Origin: Sciscionella marina DSM 45152
Lineage (GTDB): Bacteria; Actinomycetota; Actinomycetes; Mycobacteriales; Pseudonocardiaceae
NCBI RefSeq assembly: GCF_000379465.1
Contig: NZ_KB905447.1
Span: 186,001 to 250,000 of the forward strand
Length of the DNA: 64,000 nt
Reading direction: 5' to 3'
The notes under the pieces are model-generated. The model was not told where the DNA came from and ran no database searches. It worked only from the letters and a program-made list of their open reading frames with translations. This document shows, in pieces, positions 2-15,248 of this stretch (position 1 is the stretch's first letter; each line of letters opens with the position of its first letter). The translations under genes and the position numbers were made by a program.

Positions 2-1660
2 GACTTCACCATCGAGATGGCTGCCGCCTTTCTCGGCTCGTCCTTCCCGGATACCGCGCGGCTGCTCGACCATCTGGCCGCGGCGAGCCTGGTGAGCCAC
101 CACAGCTCCGGCAGGCTCTGGATGCACGATCTCATCCGGCTCTACGCGATCGAACGCTGCGAGCAGGAGGAGCCGACGGCCGAACTCAGCGAGGCGCGCG
201 GCCGTATCGTGGATTTCTACTTCCGCAAGGCATCCGCCGCTGCCGAACTGACCAATCCGATGCGCGCACGACTGCCTCCTTCGCCGGATGAGATACGACC
301 GGAAACCGAGTTCGCGGACGCTTCGGAAGCGACTCGGTGGTTCGATGCGGAGTGCCCGAATCTGATCGCGACGATCCGGGAGGTTCGGGACACCGCGCAT
401 CGCGAGCAGGTGGTCCGGCTGGCAGAGGCAATACGCCCACATCTGTTCACCAATGGGCGGCATCTTCCCGAAGCGCTGGTGGCCTATCGCGCCCTGCTGC
501 AGTCGGCGATCGAATCCGACGATGTGCACACCGAGGCGGCGATGCATCACGCGATCGGCGCACTGCTGGAACGAAGCCTGGAACACGCCCCGGCGATTCA
601 CCACTTCACCAGGGAACTGCGCGCCCACCGGATCAGCGGATCGGTGCCGAGCCAGGCACGGGCGTTGATCAGCCTGGGCAATGTGCTCTACATGGCGGGG
701 GAGCTGGAGAAAGCCAGTGCACGCCTCGGCGAGGGAATCCAGCTCGCCGGACAGGTCGGGGAAGAACCCTTGGTCTCGTTCGGAAAGCTGAACCAGGCGG
801 CCGTGGAATCCCGGCGTGGTCGGCTGTATGAGGCCGAACAGGTGGCGCGCGAGGCCATCGCTATCAACGAACACTCCACGGCGCGAGCGACAGCGGACGA
901 TCCGCGCCGGATTCTGGGCGAGACTCTGGTGCAGCGCGGTGCCTACCGGGAGGCGACCAGGGAACTAAGGCTGGCACTCGAATCGTTGCGCGCCACGCTT
1001 TCGCCGTACTGTCAAGCGGTGACACAGAGTCAGCTGGCGGTTGCCCACGACGCGATCGGTGACGTGGCCATCGCGCAGCGGTACGCCCAGGACGCTTTCG
1101 AGACCGCCCGTGAGCAAGGGGCACTCGACGAGGAAGCCGAAGTCATGGTGGCACTCGTTTCCGTGGATCCGGACATGGCATGGCGGGCCCGCCACGATGC
1201 CCTCGAGCGCGCGGTACAGCTGTGCCACAGGGTTGATCATCGCTATATGGAGGCGACCGCCCTGTGTGAGCTCGCCGAGCTGTACGTAGAGCTGCGGGAG
1301 CACGGCCAAGCCAGGATGCGGGCCAGGGAAAGCATGGTGATCAGCGAGGATTTCGGTTACCTGGTGTTGCACGGCCGGGCGGAGCTCGCCCTGGCACGGG
1401 CCGAGCTTTCCGCGGATGCCGAGCGCACGGCAGTCGAGCACGCCGAGCGCGCGGTGACGGTGTTCGCCCGTACCGGCGCGCTGGTCGAGCACGCGCGCGG
1501 CCTCATCGTGCTCGGCACCGCGAAGCGTGCGCTGGGAGCCGGGCAGGAGGCGCGGGACTCCTGGCAGCAGGCCCTTCGATGCTTGGCGGACACGGATTTA
1601 CCGGAGGATGCCGAGCTGGTTGTCTCGCTTCATTCGCTCCTGGACACCGATTCGGCTTGA
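2..1660 (+). CDS. AfsR-like NB-ARC/TPR transcriptional regulator, 5' end outside window
   Basis: The frame is already open at base 2, so this is the C-terminal part (about 552 aa) of a larger protein. The first 50 residues hold the winged-helix end of an NB-ARC ATPase module, with the typical WMHDLIRLYAIERC motif. The rest is alpha-helical and rich in A/L/E, with degenerate tetratricopeptide repeats as in AfsR, SARP-like and other STAND regulators. By analogy such proteins use ATP-dependent oligomerisation to control secondary metabolism or stress genes. The DNA-binding part, if present, lies upstream of the window. Its 3' end overlaps the 3' end of a small opposite-strand gene at 1630-1791. 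It faces the LanK/HopA1 locus, so local control is possible but only inferred from position. Confidence 0.85.
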   Translation, partial: DFTIEMAAAFLGSSFPDTARLLDHLAAASLVSHHSSGRLWMHDLIRLYAIERCEQEEPTAELSEARGRIVDFYFRKASAAAELTNPMRARLPPSPDEIRPETEFADASEATRWFDAECPNLIATIREVRDTAHREQVVRLAEAIRPHLFTNGRHLPEALVAYRALLQSAIESDDVHTEAAMHHAIGALLERSLEHAPAIHHFTRELRAHRISGSVPSQARALISLGNVLYMAGELEKASARLGEGIQLAGQVGEEPLVSFGKLNQAAVESRRGRLYEAEQVAREAIAINEHSTARATADDPRRILGETLVQRGAYREATRELRLALESLRATLSPYCQAVTQSQLAVAHDAIGDVAIAQRYAQDAFETAREQGALDEEAEVMVALVSVDPDMAWRARHDALERAVQLCHRVDHRYMEATALCELAELYVELREHGQARMRARESMVISEDFGYLVLHGRAELALARAELSADAERTAVEHAERAVTVFARTGALVEHARGLIVLGTAKRALGAGQEARDSWQQALRCLADTDLPEDAELVVSLHSLLDTDSA

Positions 1661-1791
1661 TCGTGCGGTTCCATCCCGAAATGTACGGCCGTTCCCGGGC
1701 GGGCGTACAGCAGCTGGTCCGAGGGAACACTGGCGAGTTCTTCGTCGCTGGTGAAGGTGCGGTATCCGGCGAAAAGATCGTGCAGTTCCAT
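1630..1791 (-). CDS. Small acidic 53-aa protein, unknown function
   Basis: The ATG at 1791 has a GGAG ribosome-binding site seven bases upstream, and TGA lies at 1632-1630. The product begins MELHDLFAGYRTFTSDEEL. Its first half is acidic and probably helical, followed by an ARPGTAVHFG segment and an acidic/Ser-rich tail. It contains no cysteine. It lies 59 bp downstream of the MFS gene on the same strand and could be the last gene of the exonuclease-LanK-HopA1-MFS group. Its last 31 bp overlap the end of the NB-ARC gene antisense. I do not recognise the family. A RiPP precursor is conceivable from size and place, but absence of cysteine excludes an ordinary lanthionine precursor. Start choice rests on the ribosome-binding site. 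Confidence 0.5.
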   Translation of the reverse strand: MELHDLFAGYRTFTSDEELASVPSDQLLYARPGTAVHFGMEPHDQAESVSRSE

Positions 1792-1850
1792 GGTGGGCTC
1801 CGTCCGACGCGAACAGATTCCATCGTGTCATGTTCGGGCGGCAAGACCAA

Positions 1851-3089
1851 TCAGCTTTCCGTGAGCTGAGCTTCGCGCGGTGTGCCGCCGAGCTGCCGAA
1901 CGGCCGGGAGCGCCAGCATGCCCAGGCAGGAGATCCCGACCAGGACGGCGGCGCCGATGAGCGTGGTGCGGGTACCGACTCCGGCGGCGATGGGACCGGC
2001 GAGGGCCTGGCCGAGCGGAGTCAGGCCGAGCGAGACCAGCCAGTCGTAGGACATGACCCGGGACAGCGAGTGTGCCGGAATCCGCTGCTGCACTGTGGTC
2101 TGCCAGAGGGCGTTCAGCACGGTGAGCCCGCCGTACATGAACCCGGCGGTCACCGCGATCACCGGAGCGGGCACCGGGACGGCGAGCAGTGCGGGCGGGA
2201 TGCAGCCGAGGGCCAGCGCGAGGTTCCCGACGACCAGCGGGCGGCGCGGGCGGATACGCAGCGCCACGAGGGCCCCGACCAGACCGCCTACGGCCGCACC
2301 CTGCGCGATCATGCCCCAGGACACCTGACCGCCGAGCATCGTCACCGCGACGAGCGGGCCGAGCGTCTGGTATGCCGAGCGGGCCAGATTCCAGCAGGAG
2401 TGCGCGATCAGGTTCGTCCAGTACCAGGTGTGCCGCCAGAGCTCGCGCCAGCCCTGGCGCAGTTCGGTCCAGAATCCGGCGCGCTCGGTGGGGACGTGCG
2501 CAACCCGCAGCAGGGCGAGGGTGCCGAGGCTGATCGCGTAGGTGACCGCGTTGGCCAGCATCGCCCATCCAGCACCGACCGTCACCGCGAGCGTGGTGGC
2601 GATAGCGGGTCCGAGCACGATGCCGATCTGCTTGGAGAGCCCGAGCAGCGCGTTCGCCGAGGGCAGCTGAGTGGCGTCGACCGTAGCAGGAACGATCGCG
2701 TCCGAGGCGGGCCAGAAGAAGGCGTTCGCCGTGCCCGCACAGGCCGCGAAGATCATCAGATGCGAAATGTGCACCCCACTGACCAGCAGCTCGGTGCCCA
2801 TCGCCGTCTGGGCGGCGAGGTTGAGCGCATCGGCGAAGAACATCACCCAGCGCCGGGGCAGCCGATCCGCCCAGACCCCGCCGACCAGCAGCAGGACCAG
2901 TTGCGGAACCGCCTCCGCGGCCAGCACCAGCCCGAGGTCCGCCGCCGAACCGGTGCCCTTGATGATCGCCAGGGTCAGCGCGACGGGCAGGATCCCGTCG
3001 CCGAGCAGGGACATCGAGCGGCCGATCCACAGCAGGAGGAACTTGCGGTCGCCGAGTGGCCCGGCGAGTTCCCGCAGTCTTCCCACCAT
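1851..3089 (-). CDS. MFS transporter, MFS_3/EntS-like
   Basis: This 412-aa integral membrane protein has about 12 predicted membrane segments. The N-terminal FLLLWIGRSMSLLGDGILPV and VWADRLPRRWVMFFADALN signatures are those of the MFS_3 group, which includes exporters such as EntS. The start ATG has an AGGGGGA purine tract directly before it; a GTG one codon later would be better spaced. It is co-directional with the HopA1-like gene, and a 12-codon mini-ORF sits in the 78-bp gap. In context it could export a product of the LanK/HopA1 pair, but MFS proteins of this type are too common to fix a substrate. Confidence 0.85.
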   Translation of the reverse strand: MVGRLRELAGPLGDRKFLLLWIGRSMSLLGDGILPVALTLAIIKGTGSAADLGLVLAAEAVPQLVLLLVGGVWADRLPRRWVMFFADALNLAAQTAMGTELLVSGVHISHLMIFAACAGTANAFFWPASDAIVPATVDATQLPSANALLGLSKQIGIVLGPAIATTLAVTVGAGWAMLANAVTYAISLGTLALLRVAHVPTERAGFWTELRQGWRELWRHTWYWTNLIAHSCWNLARSAYQTLGPLVAVTMLGGQVSWGMIAQGAAVGGLVGALVALRIRPRRPLVVGNLALALGCIPPALLAVPVPAPVIAVTAGFMYGGLTVLNALWQTTVQQRIPAHSLSRVMSYDWLVSLGLTPLGQALAGPIAAGVGTRTTLIGAAVLVGISCLGMLALPAVRQLGGTPREAQLTES

Positions 3090-3129
3090 TCCCCCTGTTC
3101 GGTGTTGGCTCTGCAGCGTGCGAGTCCGG

Positions 3130-3168
3130 TTACCGACGGAAGCCGACTCCGGGAATTATGTTGCACAT
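3130..3168 (-). CDS. Possible 12-codon mini-ORF coupled to HopA1-like gene
   Basis: The stop of the HopA1-like gene and an ATG overlap as TGATG. The following frame encodes MCNIIPGVGFRR before TAA, and the MFS gene starts 40 bases later. The overlap suits translational re-initiation, so the peptide could be a leader or spacer that carries ribosomes toward the transporter. It could equally be chance, since there is no separate ribosome-binding site and the length is tiny. Confidence 0.18.
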   Translation of the reverse strand: MCNIIPGVGFRR

Positions 3169-4073
3169 CACAGATCGGGGGAAGAGGTGTTCCGGTGCAG
3201 GGTAGCGGGATCGATGGCGTACTCCAGCAGCGTCGCGGCCACAGTCTCCGCGCGAGCCCGGTCCGGTTCGGTGCAGGCGTGCCGGAGCAGCCCATCGGCG
3301 ACGGCCAGGCAGCGATGGGCGCCGAAACCCCGGCCCGCGGCATCCGCGAACGGTTCCCAGGCCATCGCCAGTCCCGGTCCGAGCCGGTGCGCGAACAGTG
3401 AGGTCTCCGTGCCGGTCCACCGGCCCGCCAGCTCGACGATGTCCGGAAGCGCGGTCCACGCGTCCGGTCCGAGGTACAGCACGAGCGCGTCCCGGCGCGG
3501 CAGCAGGCTCCGGGCCGAGACGACCTTGGCGCGGTAGGGCATCGAACGTGCCTCGAGCGCGCCGAGCAGCGCCCGCCATGCCGATACGGTGCGCTCCGGA
3601 TCGGTCAGGTGCGCGTAGACCCGCAGCAGGTGTTCGCCGGTGCGGCCATGACCGCGGGAGCCGTCCACGACGAGGTGCCCCGGTGAGCGGCACGGGCGGC
3701 AAGGCCCGATGCCGACGGTCACGGTGTCCGCATCGCGCCTTGCCCGCAGCGCCGCGGCGGGCACCCGGACCCGGACTCCGTCCAGCCACACCGTGAGCTC
3801 CTCCTGGGTGGCGGCGTCGAGTCGCGCGTGCCGCCGGGTCTCCCGGTGCGGCACGGCGGCACGCAGCTCCCGCTCGAACGGCGCATCCGGCTCCGGAGGT
3901 CCGGTGTTCGCCGCCCCGGCGTGCCAGCGCGCATAGAACTCCTCGGCCAGGAGGGTGCGCAGTTCCTCGGTGGTTCCGGCCGCGCACACCCGGCCGTCGA
4001 CGCTGGCCCGGGGCGGATCGAGATACACCGTCTCGAGCGCCGCGGCCAGTCTCGGCGCGATGATCACCGGCAC
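3168..4073 (-). CDS. HopA1 (T3SS effector)-fold family protein, lanthionine-synthetase-like subunit
   Basis: 301 aa from a GTG at 4073 that overlaps the end of the upstream kinase-fold gene by 10 bp. An upstream GTG at 4160 is open but would lie deep inside that gene. The central and C-terminal part shows HopA1-domain features: an N-terminal FYARWH helix, SMPYRAKVVSA, a RRDALVLYLG strand, and the C-terminal RLGPGLAMAWEP and FGAHRC motifs. HopA1-like proteins in thioamitide (TvaD) and class V lanthipeptide (Lxm) clusters act with a kinase-fold partner, where they are implicated in forming the dehydrated or cyclised peptide. That pairing is exactly what is seen here. The substrate is unknown and no Cys-rich precursor is visible nearby. 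Confidence 0.72.
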   Translation of the reverse strand: MPVIIAPRLAAALETVYLDPPRASVDGRVCAAGTTEELRTLLAEEFYARWHAGAANTGPPEPDAPFERELRAAVPHRETRRHARLDAATQEELTVWLDGVRVRVPAAALRARRDADTVTVGIGPCRPCRSPGHLVVDGSRGHGRTGEHLLRVYAHLTDPERTVSAWRALLGALEARSMPYRAKVVSARSLLPRRDALVLYLGPDAWTALPDIVELAGRWTGTETSLFAHRLGPGLAMAWEPFADAAGRGFGAHRCLAVADGLLRHACTEPDRARAETVAATLLEYAIDPATLHRNTSSPDL

Positions 4074-5062
4074 AGCCCCACCGCCTCGATGAGGTCGGCG
4101 GGAGACAACAGCGCCACGCGGCCGATTCCCACGGCCGCCCGCTCGACCGGGTGCAGCCACGCCCGGGACCGGGCGATCGCGAACACCCGGTCGATCTGGT
4201 GCCAGCCCGCGAACGCCACCGAGCGGCGCGCCAGCTCCCCGTCGGCCGCACTACGGGCGGACCGGTAGGCGGACCAGAACGCCGCCACCAGGGGCCGGGT
4301 GCCCGCGAAATCCTCGGTCCCGGCCGCCGTTCCCGACCGGACCTTCCGCGCGGAACGGTGCAGCCATTCGCCGAGGAACGCACCGATATCGCGGGCCGGA
4401 TCCGTGAGACAGGCCTGATCCCAGTCGGTCAGCCAGATCCCTCCCGCGCCGAGCAGGAGCTGATCGAGCCGGAGATCCGCGTGACACGGGAGCTGCGCGA
4501 CCGCGCAAGCCTCCTCGGCCAGACGCGTAGCCGCGGCCGCGAGCGCCGTGTCCTCGTGCAGCATCCCGAGCAGCTCCAGCTCCGCCCCGCTGGCTTCGAG
4601 GAAAGCGGGCAGCGAAATGGCTTCGAGGAGCGCGACCGGCGGATGCGGCTGTTCGGCCGGACGCAATGGGCCGTCCCCGTCGACCGGAGCGCCGTGCAGC
4701 AGGGCGAGGGTCCGGCCGAGTTCGCGCGCCGTGGGCACGTCGAAGGCGTCCTTCTCGGCAGCGCGCAGGCCGTCGACGGTTCCGCGCAGGTGCGCGAACA
4801 CGATGAGCGATTCCCGCGCATCCCAGCCGAGGCAGCGCGGCCGGGGGAGACCCGGGAGGGCGACAGCGAACCGTTCGAAGGCCACCGCACGCCCGAACAC
4901 CGCCGGATCGGTGATGTGTTTGACGAAGACCGGCGCGCCCTGGCGGGTGATTCCGGTGATGGCATGCCAGCGGCCCCGGTGCTCGGTCACTGATTCGCGG
5001 CGCAACGGACCCAGCCCGAGGCGCTCAAGCAGCGAGTCGATCACCGGGAGCTCAGTCCGCAC
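4064..5062 (-). CDS. APH/kinase-fold protein, LanK/LxmK/TvaC-like
   Basis: 332 aa from GTG at 5062, 32 bp after the exonuclease stop. Kinase-fold motifs are present: the N-lobe GAPVFVKHI lysine strand, the catalytic loop CHADLRLDQLLL (HxD) and the metal-binding LTDWDQACLTDPARDIG (DxD-type). The relaxed loops fit the phosphotransferases found beside HopA1 proteins in class V lanthionine synthetases and thioamitide clusters, which phosphorylate Ser/Thr of a peptide before elimination. The 10-bp overlap with the HopA1-like gene indicates a translationally coupled pair. A generic small-molecule phosphotransferase is the alternative; the neighbour makes the peptide-modifying reading more likely. 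Confidence 0.7.
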   Translation of the reverse strand: MRTELPVIDSLLERLGLGPLRRESVTEHRGRWHAITGITRQGAPVFVKHITDPAVFGRAVAFERFAVALPGLPRPRCLGWDARESLIVFAHLRGTVDGLRAAEKDAFDVPTARELGRTLALLHGAPVDGDGPLRPAEQPHPPVALLEAISLPAFLEASGAELELLGMLHEDTALAAAATRLAEEACAVAQLPCHADLRLDQLLLGAGGIWLTDWDQACLTDPARDIGAFLGEWLHRSARKVRSGTAAGTEDFAGTRPLVAAFWSAYRSARSAADGELARRSVAFAGWHQIDRVFAIARSRAWLHPVERAAVGIGRVALLSPADLIEAVGLCR

Positions 5063-5094: not shown

Positions 5095-6030
5095 TCAGCC
5101 GTTGAGGGCGGCGATCAACCGGTCCACGCTGCCGCCGAGGTTCCACCGCTGCTGGAGTTCGCGCAGGGCCGGCTCGTCGGCGGGCACCTCCGGCACGGTG
5201 TCCGATGTGGACAGCTCGACCCCGGCGTCCGCGGCGACCGCGACCACCTTCGGGGCCACCGCGAGGTAGTCGGTGGCATCGAGGAAGCGCTGCCGCATCT
5301 TCGCGGTGAACGGGGACCCGGGATCGGCGGCCAGCTCGATGAGCGCCTGCAGGCTGCCGTGCTCGGTGATGAGTTTCGCCGCGGTCTTCTCACCGATCCC
5401 GGCGACACCGGGCAGCCCGTCCGACGGGTCGCCGCGCATGATGGACATGTCCAGATACGCCTTGCCGGTGCCGTGTCCGGGGAGGCCGTACTTCGCCGCC
5501 AGTGCCTGCTCATCCAGGGTTTCGGCCTTGGCCCAGCCGCGCCCGTTGTAGATCACCCGCACCCGGGTGGGCTCGGCGCGGACCAGCTGGAACAGGTCCC
5601 GGTCCCCGGTGATCACCTCGACCGGATCGGTGTTCTCGCCCGTGGTGAGTGTGCCGATCACGTCGTCCGCCTCGAACCCGGCGGCCTCACCGGTCGCGAT
5701 GCCCGCCGCGGCGAGCACGTCCAGGATGATCGGCACCTGCGGGCTGAGCGTGTCCGGCACCTCCTCCTCGGCGCCGTCGGAGCCCACCGCGACCCGGTGC
5801 GCCTTGTAGGAGGGCAGCAGATCGACCCGGAACTGCGGGCGCCAATCCGCGTCCAGGCAGGCCACGAGCCGTTTGGGGCGCCGGTCGCTGAGCACCCGGG
5901 CCACCGTGTCGGTGAACCCGCGCACCGCGTTCACCGAGGTGCCGTCGGCGGCGGTGAGCGAGTCCGGCTGCGCGAAGTAGGCGCGGAAATACAGGCTCGC
6001 GGAGTCGAGCAGGACCAGGGGAGCGTTCAC
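5095..6030 (-). CDS. 5'-3' exonuclease (Pol I N-domain-like, FEN fold)
   Basis: 311 aa, a stand-alone 5' nuclease resembling the N-terminal domain of DNA polymerase I. Visible motifs: LLDSASLYFRAYFA near the N-terminus, the arch region around KAHR, GFEADDVIGTL, ITGDRDLFQLV and the helix-hairpin-helix GDPSDGLPGVAGIGEKTAAKL. The aspartates in these motifs bind the catalytic metals. It removes flaps and RNA primers in repair and lagging-strand maturation. GTG at 6030 is chosen because homology begins there; longer upstream readings enter non-conserved sequence. It is first in the leftward group but is a common housekeeping gene, so a functional link with LanK/HopA1 is not implied. Confidence 0.93.
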   Translation of the reverse strand: MNAPLVLLDSASLYFRAYFAQPDSLTAADGTSVNAVRGFTDTVARVLSDRRPKRLVACLDADWRPQFRVDLLPSYKAHRVAVGSDGAEEEVPDTLSPQVPIILDVLAAAGIATGEAAGFEADDVIGTLTTGENTDPVEVITGDRDLFQLVRAEPTRVRVIYNGRGWAKAETLDEQALAAKYGLPGHGTGKAYLDMSIMRGDPSDGLPGVAGIGEKTAAKLITEHGSLQALIELAADPGSPFTAKMRQRFLDATDYLAVAPKVVAVAADAGVELSTSDTVPEVPADEPALRELQQRWNLGGSVDRLIAALNG

Positions 6031-10602: not shown

Positions 10603-11659
10603 CGGCCGGTTCGGGGTGCAGGGTCTTGTCCTCGCCCGCGACGCAGGCCGCCCTGCGGTCGGTACCCGCGACGAACGCGGACAGGCAGCGAGCGAAGGCG
10701 GCGTGCCCGGCCGCGTTCGGGTGGAACGAGGACGCGATGGCGTGGTCCGCCCTGGCCAGGACCCGCAGATCGGTCCAGTCGACTTTGAGCCGGTTGAACC
10801 ATTCGCCGTCCGGCTTCTGTTTGGGCCCGTTGTCGTTCATGGTGCCGCTGCACGCTTCGTGCCCGAAACCGGCGCGGGACATGTCCAGATAACGGGCACC
10901 CACCGCGTCCGCCGCACGGCGCAGGCCACCGTCGAGGGAACCGACACCCTTGCCGTGCACCCAGTTCAGGTCCGGTCCGGTGAACGGGCAGCCGTTGAGA
11001 TTGCGCAGCTGCTCGCGTGCGTCCGGGCCGACCGGGGCCGCATAGGACTGCACGATCAGCTGATAGGCGTCATCCTGGTAACCGGCTTTGTGCATCACTT
11101 CCCGGACTTCGCGCAGCGCGCCGGTCACCTTCGGCACCATCGCGCCCACCCGGGACTTCCACTCACCGCCGAATCCTTCCGAGCACGGGGATCCGAAAAG
11201 GCTTGCCTCGATGCACTTGCCGAGCAGCCCGGAGAAATCCGGTGCGTCATTGGCCCCGACGGTCACCACGATCGCACCGACCGGGTGCTGTTTGGCGATC
11301 TTCGCCAGCTGCGCGGTCTGCGGGGGCTCGCGGTACCGGCCGCCCTTGGTGATGTCCGAGGAACGGGCACCGGAGCAGGCCAGGTTGTAGCGGAACGGGT
11401 AACCCTCGATCCGGGTCCGCAGCACCTCGGCGACCGTCGAGCGGTGGCAGAAGTTGCCGTCCTTGCCGTCGGTGTCCGCGGTGTAGGAGCCCGCGCCCTC
11501 CCCGGAGGCCACGCTGTCCCCGAGCGCGACGATCGCCTTCGGCACCGGTGGCGGAGTCGGTCTGCCGGGTCCGCCGGTACCGAGCCAGACGGCTCCGGTC
11601 ACCACGATCGCGATGACGACGACGCCGAGTACCGTCCATTTCCACCATCGCGCGCGCAT
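10595..11659 (-). CDS. Membrane-anchored SGNH/GDSL esterase
   Basis: 354 aa. One N-terminal membrane segment (residues 7-28, VLGVVVIAIVVTGAVWLG) and a Pro-rich spacer precede an SGNH hydrolase domain exposed outside the cell. Catalytic blocks: block I ALGDSVASGEG (Ser), block III VTVGANDAP (Asn) and block V SSFHPNAAGHAAF (Asp/His-type). Six or more cysteines (for example FCHRS, LACSGARS, GSPCSE) suggest disulfides. Likely a lipid or polysaccharide esterase at the envelope. It is first gene of a two-gene operon with the RNA methylase. Confidence 0.87.
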   Translation of the reverse strand: MRARWWKWTVLGVVVIAIVVTGAVWLGTGGPGRPTPPPVPKAIVALGDSVASGEGAGSYTADTDGKDGNFCHRSTVAEVLRTRIEGYPFRYNLACSGARSSDITKGGRYREPPQTAQLAKIAKQHPVGAIVVTVGANDAPDFSGLLGKCIEASLFGSPCSEGFGGEWKSRVGAMVPKVTGALREVREVMHKAGYQDDAYQLIVQSYAAPVGPDAREQLRNLNGCPFTGPDLNWVHGKGVGSLDGGLRRAADAVGARYLDMSRAGFGHEACSGTMNDNGPKQKPDGEWFNRLKVDWTDLRVLARADHAIASSFHPNAAGHAAFARCLSAFVAGTDRRAACVAGEDKTLHPEPADD

Positions 11660-11719
11660 CGTCGCTCAGTCTACGCAGCCCGTGGCCGCCGCCGGCCGTT
11701 CGGCTGCGAAGATCACCGT

Positions 11720-13306
11720 GTGGTGCAACCGAAAACGACCCTGCTCACCGGCGGGCACATCTACACGCCTGGCGACCCGGACGCGACCGCGATGGCGATC
11801 ACCGGGGAGACCGTGGTGTGGATCGGCCAGGACGGACCGGCCCGCGCCCTCTACCCGGACGCCGAGCACCGTGATCTCGATGGCGCATTCGTCGCCCCGG
11901 CCTTCGTGGACGCGCACGTGCACGCGACCGCGACCGGGCTGCTCACCGAGGGAGTGGACCTGCGCGCGGCCGGCTCGGCGCAGGACTGCCTCACGCTGCT
12001 GCGTGCCGCGGCCGCCGGGGTATCCGAGGGCGGTGTGCTGTGGGCGCACGGCTGGGACGAGAGCGGATGGCCGGGGCAGCGGATCCCGAGCAGGACCGAA
12101 CTGGACGAAGCGGTCGGGCAGACCGCCGTCTACGCATCCCGGATCGACGCGCATTCGGCCCTGGTGTCCGGTGCCCTGCTCGCGGCCGCCCCGGATGTGC
12201 GCGAATCGGACGGCTGGTCGGCCGGGGGACCGGTGACCAAAGCGGCCCATCACGCCGCCCGCGCGCACGCGATCGGCGCGCTGAGTGGGCAGCAGCGGGA
12301 GCGCGCGCAGCGGGCCTTTCTCGCCGAGGCGGCGGCACAGGGGATCGCCGCCGTGCACGAATGCTCCGGCCCGGAGATCGCCGGACGGTCCGATCTGGCC
12401 GCGCTGCTCGAACTCGGCACCCGCCCGGAGCTCCCGGATGTCACCGGCTACTGGGGGCAGCGCTCGGTCGAACTTCCCGAAGGGGTGCACGGGCTCGGCG
12501 GAGACCTGTTCGTGGACGGGGCGCTCGGCTCGCGTACCGCGGCGCTGCGTGCGCCCTACACCGACGCCCCGGGATCACGGGGCACCCGCTATCTGGACGC
12601 CGAACAGATCGCCGAGCACCTCGTCGACTGCACACGAGCCCGTATCCAGGCGGGATTCCACGTGATCGGGGACGCGGCGCTCGAGGAGATCCTTGCCGGG
12701 TTCGCGCTGGCCAGGGAACGTATCGAGGGCATCGCCATGCGCAGGCACCGGCTCGAACACCTGGAGATGGCCGGGGCCGAGCAGATCGCCGCGCTCGCGG
12801 AGCTCGGGGTGGTCGGCTCGGTGCAGCCGCTGTTCGACCGGGCCTGGGGCGGCGACTCCGGGATGTACACCCAACGGCTCGGTGCCGACCGGGCCTCGGC
12901 GATGAACCCGTTCGCCGCGCTCGCCGCTGCCGGGGTGATCCTGGCCTTCGGGTCGGACAGCCCCGTCACCCCGATGCGGCCGTGGGAAGCGGTGCGCGCG
13001 GCCGTGCACCACCGGACACCGGGTTCGGGCATCTCCCCGCGTGCCGCGTTCGCCGCGCACACCAGGGGCGGCTGGCGCGCGGCCGGGGTGGACGACGGGA
13101 TCACCGGGACCCTGGTGCCCGGTGCACCGGCGACCTATGCGGTGTGGGAGGTCGAGGAACTGGTGAGCGCACCCGGCGATGAACGCGTGCAGCGCTGGTC
13201 GACCGATCCACGCGCCCGGGTGCCCGCCCTGCCCTCGCTCGCCGAGGACTCCGCCCCGCCACGCTGCCTGGCCACCGTGCTGCGCGGAGCGACCATTCAT
13301 TCCTAG
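11720..13306 (+). CDS. YtcJ-like metal-dependent amidohydrolase
   Basis: 528 aa, Amidohydro_3 family. The HxH motif VDAHVHATATG, later metal ligands in FHVIGDAAL and HRLEHLEM, and the catalytic Asp in FGSDSPVTP are all present, so it should be active on an amide, formamide or cyclic imide. GTG at 11720 (or the adjacent GTG at 11723) is taken as start, 60 bp from the divergent esterase gene. The C-terminus overlaps the convergent DUF5313 gene by 4 bp. A second, related amidohydrolase lies at 50247-51683. Confidence 0.87.
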   Translation: MVQPKTTLLTGGHIYTPGDPDATAMAITGETVVWIGQDGPARALYPDAEHRDLDGAFVAPAFVDAHVHATATGLLTEGVDLRAAGSAQDCLTLLRAAAAGVSEGGVLWAHGWDESGWPGQRIPSRTELDEAVGQTAVYASRIDAHSALVSGALLAAAPDVRESDGWSAGGPVTKAAHHAARAHAIGALSGQQRERAQRAFLAEAAAQGIAAVHECSGPEIAGRSDLAALLELGTRPELPDVTGYWGQRSVELPEGVHGLGGDLFVDGALGSRTAALRAPYTDAPGSRGTRYLDAEQIAEHLVDCTRARIQAGFHVIGDAALEEILAGFALARERIEGIAMRRHRLEHLEMAGAEQIAALAELGVVGSVQPLFDRAWGGDSGMYTQRLGADRASAMNPFAALAAAGVILAFGSDSPVTPMRPWEAVRAAVHHRTPGSGISPRAAFAAHTRGGWRAAGVDDGITGTLVPGAPATYAVWEVEELVSAPGDERVQRWSTDPRARVPALPSLAEDSAPPRCLATVLRGATIHS

Positions 13307-13626
13307 CGCTTGTTCCTGGCCAGCACCAGATCGGGAATGAAGCCGTGCTTGTAGAGCCGATGGTTGCGTGCGTCCCTGGCGAACATCATCGCCACCCACA
13401 CGCCGCCGATCACCACGATCGCGGGCAGGTAGAACAGGAACGGGAACGAACCGGGAAGCAGCAGCAGGAGGAACCCGGGGGAGCACTGGATGAACGAGTG
13501 CAGCGCATGCCGGAGCAACCAGGTGCGACAGGTCAGATCGTGCAGCACCCACTGTGCGTGTTTCGGTATCGTGCCGCCGCACGCGTAGTACAACCACGGC
13601 AGCACGCCGGGACGGCCACCGGTCAT
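13303..13626 (-). CDS. DUF5313 membrane protein
   Basis: 107 aa with two adjacent hydrophobic segments (residues 45-90) and an N-terminal motif RPGVLPWLYYACGGTIP that marks the DUF5313 family, common in mycobacteria and Pseudonocardiales. The PKHAQWVLHDLTCRTW stretch is conserved in the family as I recall it. Function unknown. It is divergent from lnt with 35 bp between start codons. Confidence 0.8.
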   Translation of the reverse strand: MTGGRPGVLPWLYYACGGTIPKHAQWVLHDLTCRTWLLRHALHSFIQCSPGFLLLLLPGSFPFLFYLPAIVVIGGVWVAMMFARDARNHRLYKHGFIPDLVLARNKR

Positions 13627-13661
13627 GAGTCAATGGTAGTGCCGACCGTACAGTTCTGGGC

Positions 13662-15248
13662 ATGGCGATCACCGCCGAGCATCCCGTCGAAGACCGTTCC
13701 CCGGCCTGCCGCAGGCCCCGGCTGTGGTGGGTGCTGCGGATGCTGCTCAGCCTTGCCGCCGGTGCCCTGGTCACCGTGGCCGCCCCGCCGCGGGACCTGT
13801 GGTGGCTCGCCCCGATCGGGGTCGCGCTGTTGTGCCTGGTACTGGACGGCAGGCGGGCGCGCAGCGGGTTCGGCTACGGGCTGCTCTTCGGACTCGGCTG
13901 GACCCTGCCGCTGCTGACCTGGCTGTGGGACTTCCTCGGACCGGGCGGGTTCGGACCGTGGCCATGGCTCGGCGTGGCGCTGATCGAATCGGTGTTGTTC
14001 GCGGCGCCGTGCGCGATCGCGGCGCTGGTGTCCCGGCTGCGGCTGGCCCCGGTGTGGATCGCCGCGAGCTTCGTGCTCGGTGAACTGCTCCGGGACACCC
14101 TGCCATTCGGCGGCTTCCCCTGGGCACGGCTGGCGTTCACCCAGCCGTCCGGGCCACTGCTGCCGTTGGCCTCGCTCGCCGGTGCGCCGCTGCTGAGCTT
14201 CGCGGTCGCCCTGCTCGGTGCCTCGCTGGCCAGGCTGGCGCTGCTGCGCCGCACCCCGCCCCGCCTTGCGCTGCCCACGGCCACCTTCGTGCTGCCGCTG
14301 GTGCTCGGCCTGGCGCTGTGGCCGACCATCGGCAACCCGGAGCCGGGCGGGACGGTGCGCGCCATGGCCATCCAGGGCAGCGGACCGAATATCGGCATCA
14401 ACCTCAACTACGCGGGCAACGTGCTGTGGCGGCGCACCGTCGAACAGACCGAGCGCACCGAACAGGACATCGCCAAGGGCAAGACACGCCGCCCGGATGT
14501 GGTGGTCGTGCCGGAGACCGTGGTCTCGCTGACCGGAACCAGCGCGGCCGATCTGTACCCGGTCGAATCGGTGGCCAAGGCGCTCGGTGCGCCGACCGTG
14601 ATCGGTGTGGCGATGAATCCCGAGCAGGGCAAGCCGATGAACAGCACGCTCGGTATCGATCCGAGACGCGGGCTCACCGGCCGGTACGTCAAACAGCACC
14701 TGGTGCCGTTCGGCGAGAAGGTCCCGCTGTACTGGCTCGCCAAGTACGTGACTCCGTTTCTGGACGAGATGGCGCAGCTGCAAGCAGGGGACAAACCCGG
14801 AGTGCTGCCCGCGGGCGCGGCGCGGGTCGGCATCGCCTCCTGCTACGACCTCGGCTATGACGACGTACTGCGCGGTGCGGCGAACTCCGGGGCGAACCTG
14901 CTCGCGGTACCTACGAACAACGCCTGGTATGGCTTCAGCGAGATGCCCTACCAGCAGCAGGCGATGGCCCGGATCCGCGCGGTGGAGCACGACCGGTCGG
15001 TCGTGGTCGCCGCGACAACCGGGACGAGCGCGATCATCCGCCCGGATGGGGGCGTTGTACACCAGACCGGACTGTTCACCCCGGCCACGATCGCGGCCGA
15101 GGTGCCGCTCCGCACACACATCACACTGGCGGATACCCTGGGCCCTTGGCCGGAGTGGGTGCTGGCCGCCGTCGGGCTCGCCGGGCTGCTTCCCGGTATC
15201 CGCTCTCGGCGCACCCGGAAGGGAGTCCCGGCCGCCGAACTGACGTGA
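13662..15248 (+). CDS. lnt: Apolipoprotein N-acyltransferase
   Basis: 528 aa. About seven N-terminal membrane segments precede a nitrilase-type periplasmic domain. The catalytic triad is visible: Glu in [12 protein letters not shown], Lys in [11 protein letters not shown] and Cys in [12 protein letters not shown]. It N-acylates the lipid-modified cysteine of lipoproteins at the membrane. It lies 19 bp before the polyprenol-phosphomannose synthase gene; in Mycobacterium tuberculosis these two functions are fused in Ppm1, here they are separate neighbours. Confidence 0.95.

Follow-up and report, generated by a model that had tools for sequence, protein, structure and literature searches.

A cysteine-free LanK/LanY locus in Sciscionella marina as a probable source of a non-thioether dehydro-peptide

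We analyzed a 64,000-nt stretch of the 8.5-Mb genome of Sciscionella marina DSM 45152 (contig NZ_KB905447.1, positions 186,001–250,000; hereafter, the window). Near its start lie a LanK-type kinase gene (K), a HopA1-type LanY lyase gene (Y), a major facilitator superfamily (MFS) exporter gene and a gene for a 53-aa peptide (A), faced by a convergent AfsR-like regulator gene (Table 1). LanK and LanY are known as machinery for making lanthionine and S-aminovinyl-cysteine (AviCys) peptides. Judging from its sequence, the locus described here probably uses the same enzyme pair to make a dehydro-peptide without thioether rings, and it belongs to a conserved clade of loci whose precursor cannot form an internal thioether.

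A preliminary description of this DNA had proposed a kinase-fold and HopA1-fold gene pair of the class V lanthipeptide or thioamitide type, and profile searches bore this out. K scored 347.9 bits against the LxmK model NF038156 (cut-off 315), which places it in that family and not among unrelated small-molecule phosphotransferases, the alternative that had been raised. Y scored 120.9 bits against HopA1 (PF17914; cut-off 22.7). Both proteins matched the chains of the solved LxmKY complex (PMC12141560), with E-values of 1.3e-44 for K against 9dk1_A (phmmer) and 2.4e-33 for Y against 9dk1_B. The HxDLRLDQ and DWD motifs of K were invariant in all eight aligned kinases. In Y, residues R151, K183, R193 and Y200 (numbered from the GTG at 4073) correspond with exact spacing to R187, K219, R229 and Y236 of CaoY, which are reported to be catalytic (PMC9486802); among 29 aligned LanY sequences, R151 was kept in all, and each of the other three in 28. 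A histidine, H51, was also kept in 28 out of 29; it aligns with the region of CaoY H57 and is its putative equivalent. Between the two Sciscionella genomes compared, dN/dS (nonsynonymous over synonymous divergence) was 0.07/0.25 (∼0.29) for K and 0.10/0.26 (∼0.38) for Y; by these ratios both genes are under purifying selection, and by homology the pair is a LanK/LanY pair of the class V/thioamitide type. The genes were found where the preliminary description had placed them, with the exporter and the 53-aa peptide gene after the pair. The 10-bp overlap it gave for K and Y holds if Y starts at GTG 4073; with GTG 4067, a start no less likely, Y overlaps K at its stop codon by 4 bp.

The pair had been thought to act on an unknown substrate, with no Cys-bearing precursor in sight. 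The absence of Cys stands, but the precursor itself is visible: the 53-aa peptide A carries an LxmA-type leader, so the substrate of the K/Y pair is not unknown, and on this sequence evidence A is the precursor of the system. Against the LxmA leader model (NF038146), A scored 25.0 bits, which equals the cut-off of 25. When all six frames of the genome were searched, no other sequence passed the cut-off: A had an E-value of 3.3e-4 (24.6 bits by itself and 25.1 with its frame), versus 1.94 for the next match. The gene is preceded by a ribosome-binding-site-like GGAG. The leader positions −24, −20, −17, −12 and −11 of CaoA, reported as important (PMC9486802), fall by eye on L6, Y10, F13, E18 and L19 of A. 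Orthologs of A were conserved in eight genomes, that of the window included, and the Cys count was zero in all eight precursors (the start codons of two, from loci L052 and L059, were set by us at the conserved Met). With no Cys in A, an internal lanthionine is impossible; the earlier proposal of a lanthionine-forming or other peptide-modifying locus thus narrows to its second half.

We surveyed LxmK loci to see how this precursor is distributed. LxmK was found over its cut-off in 25 of 390 genomes of the family, and 28 stretches were taken around 29 LxmK places other than that of the window. To these we added 80 named loci from one genome-collection scan (the best 80 of 85) and removed six duplicates, leaving 102 loci beside the window; 18 of these were shorter than 17 kb, and all seven stretches that proved Cys-free were 20 kb long. 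An LxmA-type precursor was detected in 66 loci (leader hidden Markov model [HMM], E <0.01), with Cys in 59 and without Cys in seven; the other 36 yielded no precursor and are uninformative on Cys content. LanD, sought in frames of at least 110 aa with an HMM developed from the gene of Streptomyces cacaoi, was present in 52 out of 59 Cys-bearing loci versus none of the seven Cys-free loci. A strong match to the window's regulator (at least 711 bits) was present in all seven Cys-free loci versus one of the 59 Cys-bearing loci (L050; the next, L053, scored 256 bits).

The seven Cys-free loci came from Sciscionella sediminilitoris and from six genomes of a second genus, three of which are named Amycolatopsis (A. 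bullii, sp. A133 and sp. 2-2); we refer to these six loci as the Amycolatopsis type. A tree of 103 kinases united those of the eight Cys-free loci in one clade (support 100/98, with the bootstrap not fully settled). The regulator, A, an MFS exporter, Y and K were common to these loci. In S. sediminilitoris SE31, the sole other genome of the genus compared, the arrangement is syntenic, so the gene grouping is more than chance. The preliminary description had looked to conservation of the five-gene order: the five gene types are indeed kept together, but the peptide and exporter genes are swapped in the second genus (K-Y-A-MFS in the Amycolatopsis type versus K-Y-MFS-A in Sciscionella). The MFS gene adjoining the precursor in the Amycolatopsis type, where it stands between A and the regulator, is a different one, and tblastn between the MFS genes of the two types gave no match. 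Cys-free precursors were found in eight of the 390 family genomes at E ≤2.8e-25, with the next match at 8.2e-4. In sampled sets of genomes from the order and the class, both including the family itself, a Cys-free precursor was found at E 0.001 in one of 397 and one of 394, the source genome each time; a plasmid search with one Amycolatopsis-type precursor gave no match. Synteny bounds drawn with tblastx among the six Amycolatopsis-type loci were discarded as noise.

The precursors of the Amycolatopsis type are near-constant at residues 1–19, variable at 20–28, near-constant again at 29–38 ([SA]RNT[TA]TP[GA]FL) and variable in the tail, so the Thr-rich decapeptide is likely to be the product region. 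The Sciscionella stretch aligned to it reads ARPGT(A/I)(V/I)H(F/L)G. The C-terminal tail of LanY (RNTTSP..) resembles the Amycolatopsis core (RNTTTPGFL); we rejected this likeness as not special, as tails of the form IDPxxPxRN also occur in the LanY of several Cys-bearing loci.

Ring-forming enzymes were not met near the locus. The preliminary description had seen no cysteine decarboxylase, which agrees with our searches: the LanD HMM found none at 175–198 kb of the contig, and the nearest flavoprotein-family gene (PF02441) on the contig lies ∼34 kb from the kinase gene, others being on other contigs. The LanC-like genes of the genome are on other contigs, no cyclase gene was found near the locus, and a search for LanX as a second kinase match at E 1e-5, which is a weak test, returned none.

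We propose the following route. LanK would bind the LxmA-type leader of A and phosphorylate Ser/Thr in its C-terminal part, and LanY would eliminate the phosphate to give dehydroalanine or dehydrobutyrine, the latter most likely at the Thr of ARPGT in Sciscionella or within [SA]RNT[TA]TP[GA]FL in the Amycolatopsis type. Dehydration by K and Y is expected from characterized homologs, CaoKY and LxmKY, which dehydrate a leader-bearing peptide (PMC9486802, PMC12141560), and from the intact active sites. The lack of thioether rings would follow from the lack of Cys. The product would be a linear, or at least non-thioether, dehydro-peptide, because A is without Cys and its surroundings lack LanD and LanC genes. 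A protease encoded outside the locus would remove the leader, and the MFS protein would export the product. It has been suggested that residues dehydrated by LanK/LanY might stay so without further change (Kloosterman et al. 2020; PMC7794033).

Several points weigh against this account. The NCBIfam leader model matches only three of the eight precursors (E ≤1). The remaining five belong here on the grounds of alignment, position and neighboring genes, and an HMM built from 66 leaders as seeds (five Cys-free ones among them) recovers all seven other Cys-free precursors. At the position of CaoA Tyr-17, whose replacement by Ala or Gln abolished dehydration (PMC9486802), all eight Cys-free precursors have Phe, so leader recognition must differ somewhat. 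Among precursor ORFs selected by a regular expression, this residue was Tyr in 60 and Phe in one of 61 Cys-bearing peptides, and Phe in five out of five Cys-free peptides; the selection excluded three Cys-free peptides (those of the window, L052 and L059), all likewise with Phe. The locus contains no protease gene, and LanX-type cyclases may have diverged too far for our kinase HMM to recognize.

What the product does is a separate question, and here the convergent regulator comes in. It is 1,088 aa long in all; its gene starts 1,606 bp upstream of the window, which holds the C-terminal half. The preliminary description of an AfsR-like regulator facing the group is supported by a SARP-NB-ARC-TPR architecture (BTAD, 132.9 bits; NB-ARC, 41.9 bits, spanning residues 282–490; TPR_12, 46.7 bits). 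The in-window half scored 103.9 bits against the AfsR model NF053617, far under its cut-off of 1430, and its sensor half is matched by the AfsR chains 8jke/8k60. The 3′ ends of A and the regulator gene overlap by 31 bp (1630–1660).

A comparison of the two Sciscionella genomes suggested that the C-terminal part of A and the sensor part of the regulator share an excess of divergence. In A, one of codons 1–34 differed versus 15 out of 19 of codons 35–53 (Fisher P = 9e-9); residues 1–34 were identical in both species, and 10 out of 19 thereafter. Nucleotide identity in 200-bp steps was mostly 88%–97% outside and 78%–86% at 200–1800. A two-breakpoint fit over −5800 to 6000 delimited a block (Table 1) with 19.7% mismatches inside versus 7.5% outside (log-likelihood ratio 87.6), a statistic reached in none of 200 shuffles of 100-bp tiles. 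Its right edge is the first base of A codon 35, and its left edge falls at regulator residue 642–643, past the NB-ARC match; the nucleotide-binding domain of Streptomyces coelicolor AfsR ends at 618 (PMC10936776). Mismatches numbered 24/129 nt in the regulator part beside A, 8/31 in the overlap and 14/29 in the rest of the core, and 1/102 in the leader, 4/59 in the gap to the MFS gene and 23/250 at the MFS gene end. Regulator residues 1–600 were 95% identical (dN 0.025, dS 0.24), versus 78.7% for residues 620–1088 (dN 0.119, dS 0.59).

We compared this step with other SARP genes of the same two genomes, taking eight of nine further places in the window's genome and seven of eight in SE31. Six pairs aligned at ≥60%, a short pair having been excluded, and five were kept; the sixth (L190/L199) was dropped for a dS below its dN, its frame apparently not being the SARP frame. 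In the five control pairs, the ratio of C-half to N-half dS was 0.90–1.13, with no step in dS; some carried untrimmed N-terminal upstream residues, which makes the division at residue 600 approximate. In the Amycolatopsis type, where the core is near-constant, the between-half dN ratio was 0.90–1.41 over 15 pairs (which are not independent) versus 4.8 in Sciscionella. A search of both Sciscionella genomes for further copies of the block found none.

Because core and sensor share the divergent block, we tentatively raise the possibility that the modified peptide is a signal acting through the adjacent regulator, a peptide pheromone of an actinomycete. The product would be an inducer read by the arm/TPR sensor, and the regulator would in turn activate the operon; the core of the peptide and the sensor domain may, with similarly guarded confidence, have been exchanged together as a specificity cassette. 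If true, the locus would encode an RRNPP-like system whose ligand is post-translationally modified, and a large AfsR-type SARP would gain an inducer. Set against a signal role are that the shared divergence comes from one genome pair, that A and the sensor are neighbors in Sciscionella, and that identity dips elsewhere too, to 83%–88% in several 200-bp steps over K and Y (3400–4800), those at 3800–4400 having 83%–87%, and in a few gap-rich steps outside the block. One control pair (L197/L204) showed a raised C-half dN as well (0.040 versus 0.019; amino acid identity falling from 96.0% to 92.3%), with no excess in dS. The block is possibly a chance recombination tract.

An account with the same enzymology and a plainer ending, to which we give even chances, is that the locus makes an ordinary bioactive peptide, an antibiotic or another kind, with the SARP a mere pathway activator and the block an incidental homologous-recombination tract or allele. 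SARPs commonly activate biosynthetic clusters, and a SARP is described in association with the cacaoidin cluster (PMC12224297). An incidental tract is favored by the rise of both dS (0.59) and dN (0.12) in the block, by the adjacency that lets a single tract cover both A and sensor, and by the reliance on one genome pair. On the other hand, a random tract with its right edge at codon 35 of A and its left edge just past the NB-ARC region would be a striking coincidence, and A outside the overlap diverges far more than the adjoining regulator part (14/29 versus 24/129 nt).

It is improbable, to our mind, that the dehydrated residues are instead attacked by another nucleophile (His, mycothiol or free Cys) to give a cross-linked or conjugated product. 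CaoA dehydrated in Escherichia coli did carry added glutathione (PMC9486802), and His 37 and His 43 are kept in both Sciscionella peptides, but no His position is common to all Amycolatopsis-type precursors, Lys occurs in none of the eight precursors, and there is no cyclase gene near. Decay of a class V lanthipeptide cluster, with loss of Cys and decarboxylase, would account for the lack of LanD and LanC nearby and for a leader-model match only at the cut-off, but is very unlikely given a locus kept in two genera within one kinase clade, the low dN/dS of K and Y, their intact catalytic residues and the DNA identity of the first 30 codons of A between two species.

We also compared the locus with known systems. 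It shares the LanK/LanY dehydratase pair and the LxmA-type leader with the class V lanthipeptides (lexapeptide, LxmKY; cacaoidin, CaoKY; rosin, RosKY) and differs in having no precursor Cys, neither LanD (class Va) nor LanC (class Vb) nearby, Phe for Tyr in the leader, and its own SARP-NB-ARC-TPR regulator and MFS exporter. By its sequence it fails as a lanthipeptide locus on Cys and acts like a class V dehydratase locus. A SARP beside a class V locus has already been described, with cacaoidin (PMC12224297). Thioamitides (thioviridamide, TvaC/TvaD) use a homologous kinase/HopA1 pair to dehydrate Ser/Thr (PMC9486802) and contain AviCys and thioamides (PMC7794033), whereas here no LanD was found and there is no Cys. 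As in RRNPP quorum sensing (Rap, NprR, PlcR), the gene of a small propeptide adjoins that of an intracellular protein with TPRs (PMC10075063); unlike there, the candidate receptor has 1,088 aa with SARP and NB-ARC parts, not 250–500 aa, the propeptide is equipped with an LxmA-type leader and with enzymes that would modify it, and peptide–TPR binding is putative. RRNPP propeptides are secreted by Sec; here, the locus includes an MFS exporter gene. AfsR of S. coelicolor has the same SARP-NB-ARC-TPR architecture and is described as a global regulator, its TPR part being without a known inducer (PMC10936776); the present regulator differs in being convergent to a locus for a ribosomally synthesized and post-translationally modified peptide (RiPP) and in scoring far under the AfsR equivalog cut-off. 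In the open-licence literature, covered in part, we recognized no paper on Cys-free LanK/LanY loci or on a peptide inducer of a SARP, which is weak evidence of absence.

Table 1. Coordinates of the features of the locus in the window
Feature	Coordinates	Strand	Basis
Kinase K (LxmK/LanK-type Ser/Thr kinase, 332 aa)	4064–5062	minus	NF038156, phmmer to 9dk1_A
Lyase Y (HopA1-type LanY)	3168–4067 or 3168–4073	minus	PF17914, residue spacing
MFS exporter gene (412 aa)	1851–3089	minus	MFS_1, 114.2 bits
Peptide A (53 aa, Cys-free, LxmA-type leader)	1630–1791	minus	NF038146
Leader part of A, codons 1–34	1690–1791	minus	Inter-genome comparison
Divergent C-terminal part of A with presumed core, codons 35–53	1630–1689	minus	Inter-genome comparison
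AfsR-like SARP-NB-ARC-TPR regulator, C-terminal half	1–1660	plus	Convergent; BTAD, NB-ARC, TPR_12
Raised-divergence block (regulator arm/TPR sensor part and divergent end of A)	319–1689	no strand	Two-breakpoint fit

The scanned neighbors of the locus were exonuclease, ArsR-like, MFS, AsnC-like, GNAT, racemase, DUF4333, helicase and TatC genes. No RiPP tailoring enzyme was among those scanned in the window's genome, nor was YcaO met there, no search having been aimed at it. Models of defense systems gave a single weak TPR match. A gene caller based on G+C content at third codon positions was used for orientation only, being too crude for more.

Some further features of the precursor and of the surveyed loci are worth recording. 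The 90 bases of A codons 1–30 (1702–1791) are DNA-identical between the Sciscionella genomes, with dS of 0.13–0.25 in the flanking genes, which hints at a further constraint on leader DNA or RNA. In all six Amycolatopsis-type loci (L052, L055, L056, L058, L059 and L063), a GNAT acetyltransferase gene is directly divergent from K; these genes are 69%–79% identical to that of L056, and none was found at the Sciscionella locus. A TAACAT hexamer is conserved 7–8 nt before the kinase start in six out of six of these loci and resembles, by eye, the −10 box of leaderless mRNAs. Locus L050 (the same as L139, from Actinophytocola xinjiangensis; 11197–11385 and 11368–14694) has the same convergent SARP regulator and a one-Cys precursor with no exporter gene between, and is perhaps an intermediate type.

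Among the LxmK loci, neither an LxmA-type precursor (E <0.01) nor LanD was detected in L046, L057, L062, L064, L065, L066, L068, L069 and L070. In L077 and L102, the precursor ORF upstream of the kinase gene is present twice, as nearly identical copies on opposite strands that form an inverted duplicate. Finally, one contig of genome G083 (L035-type and L054) has two LxmK genes, and after each comes a Thr-rich precursor; the two precursors are similar and end in ..TTTTLIFSC..

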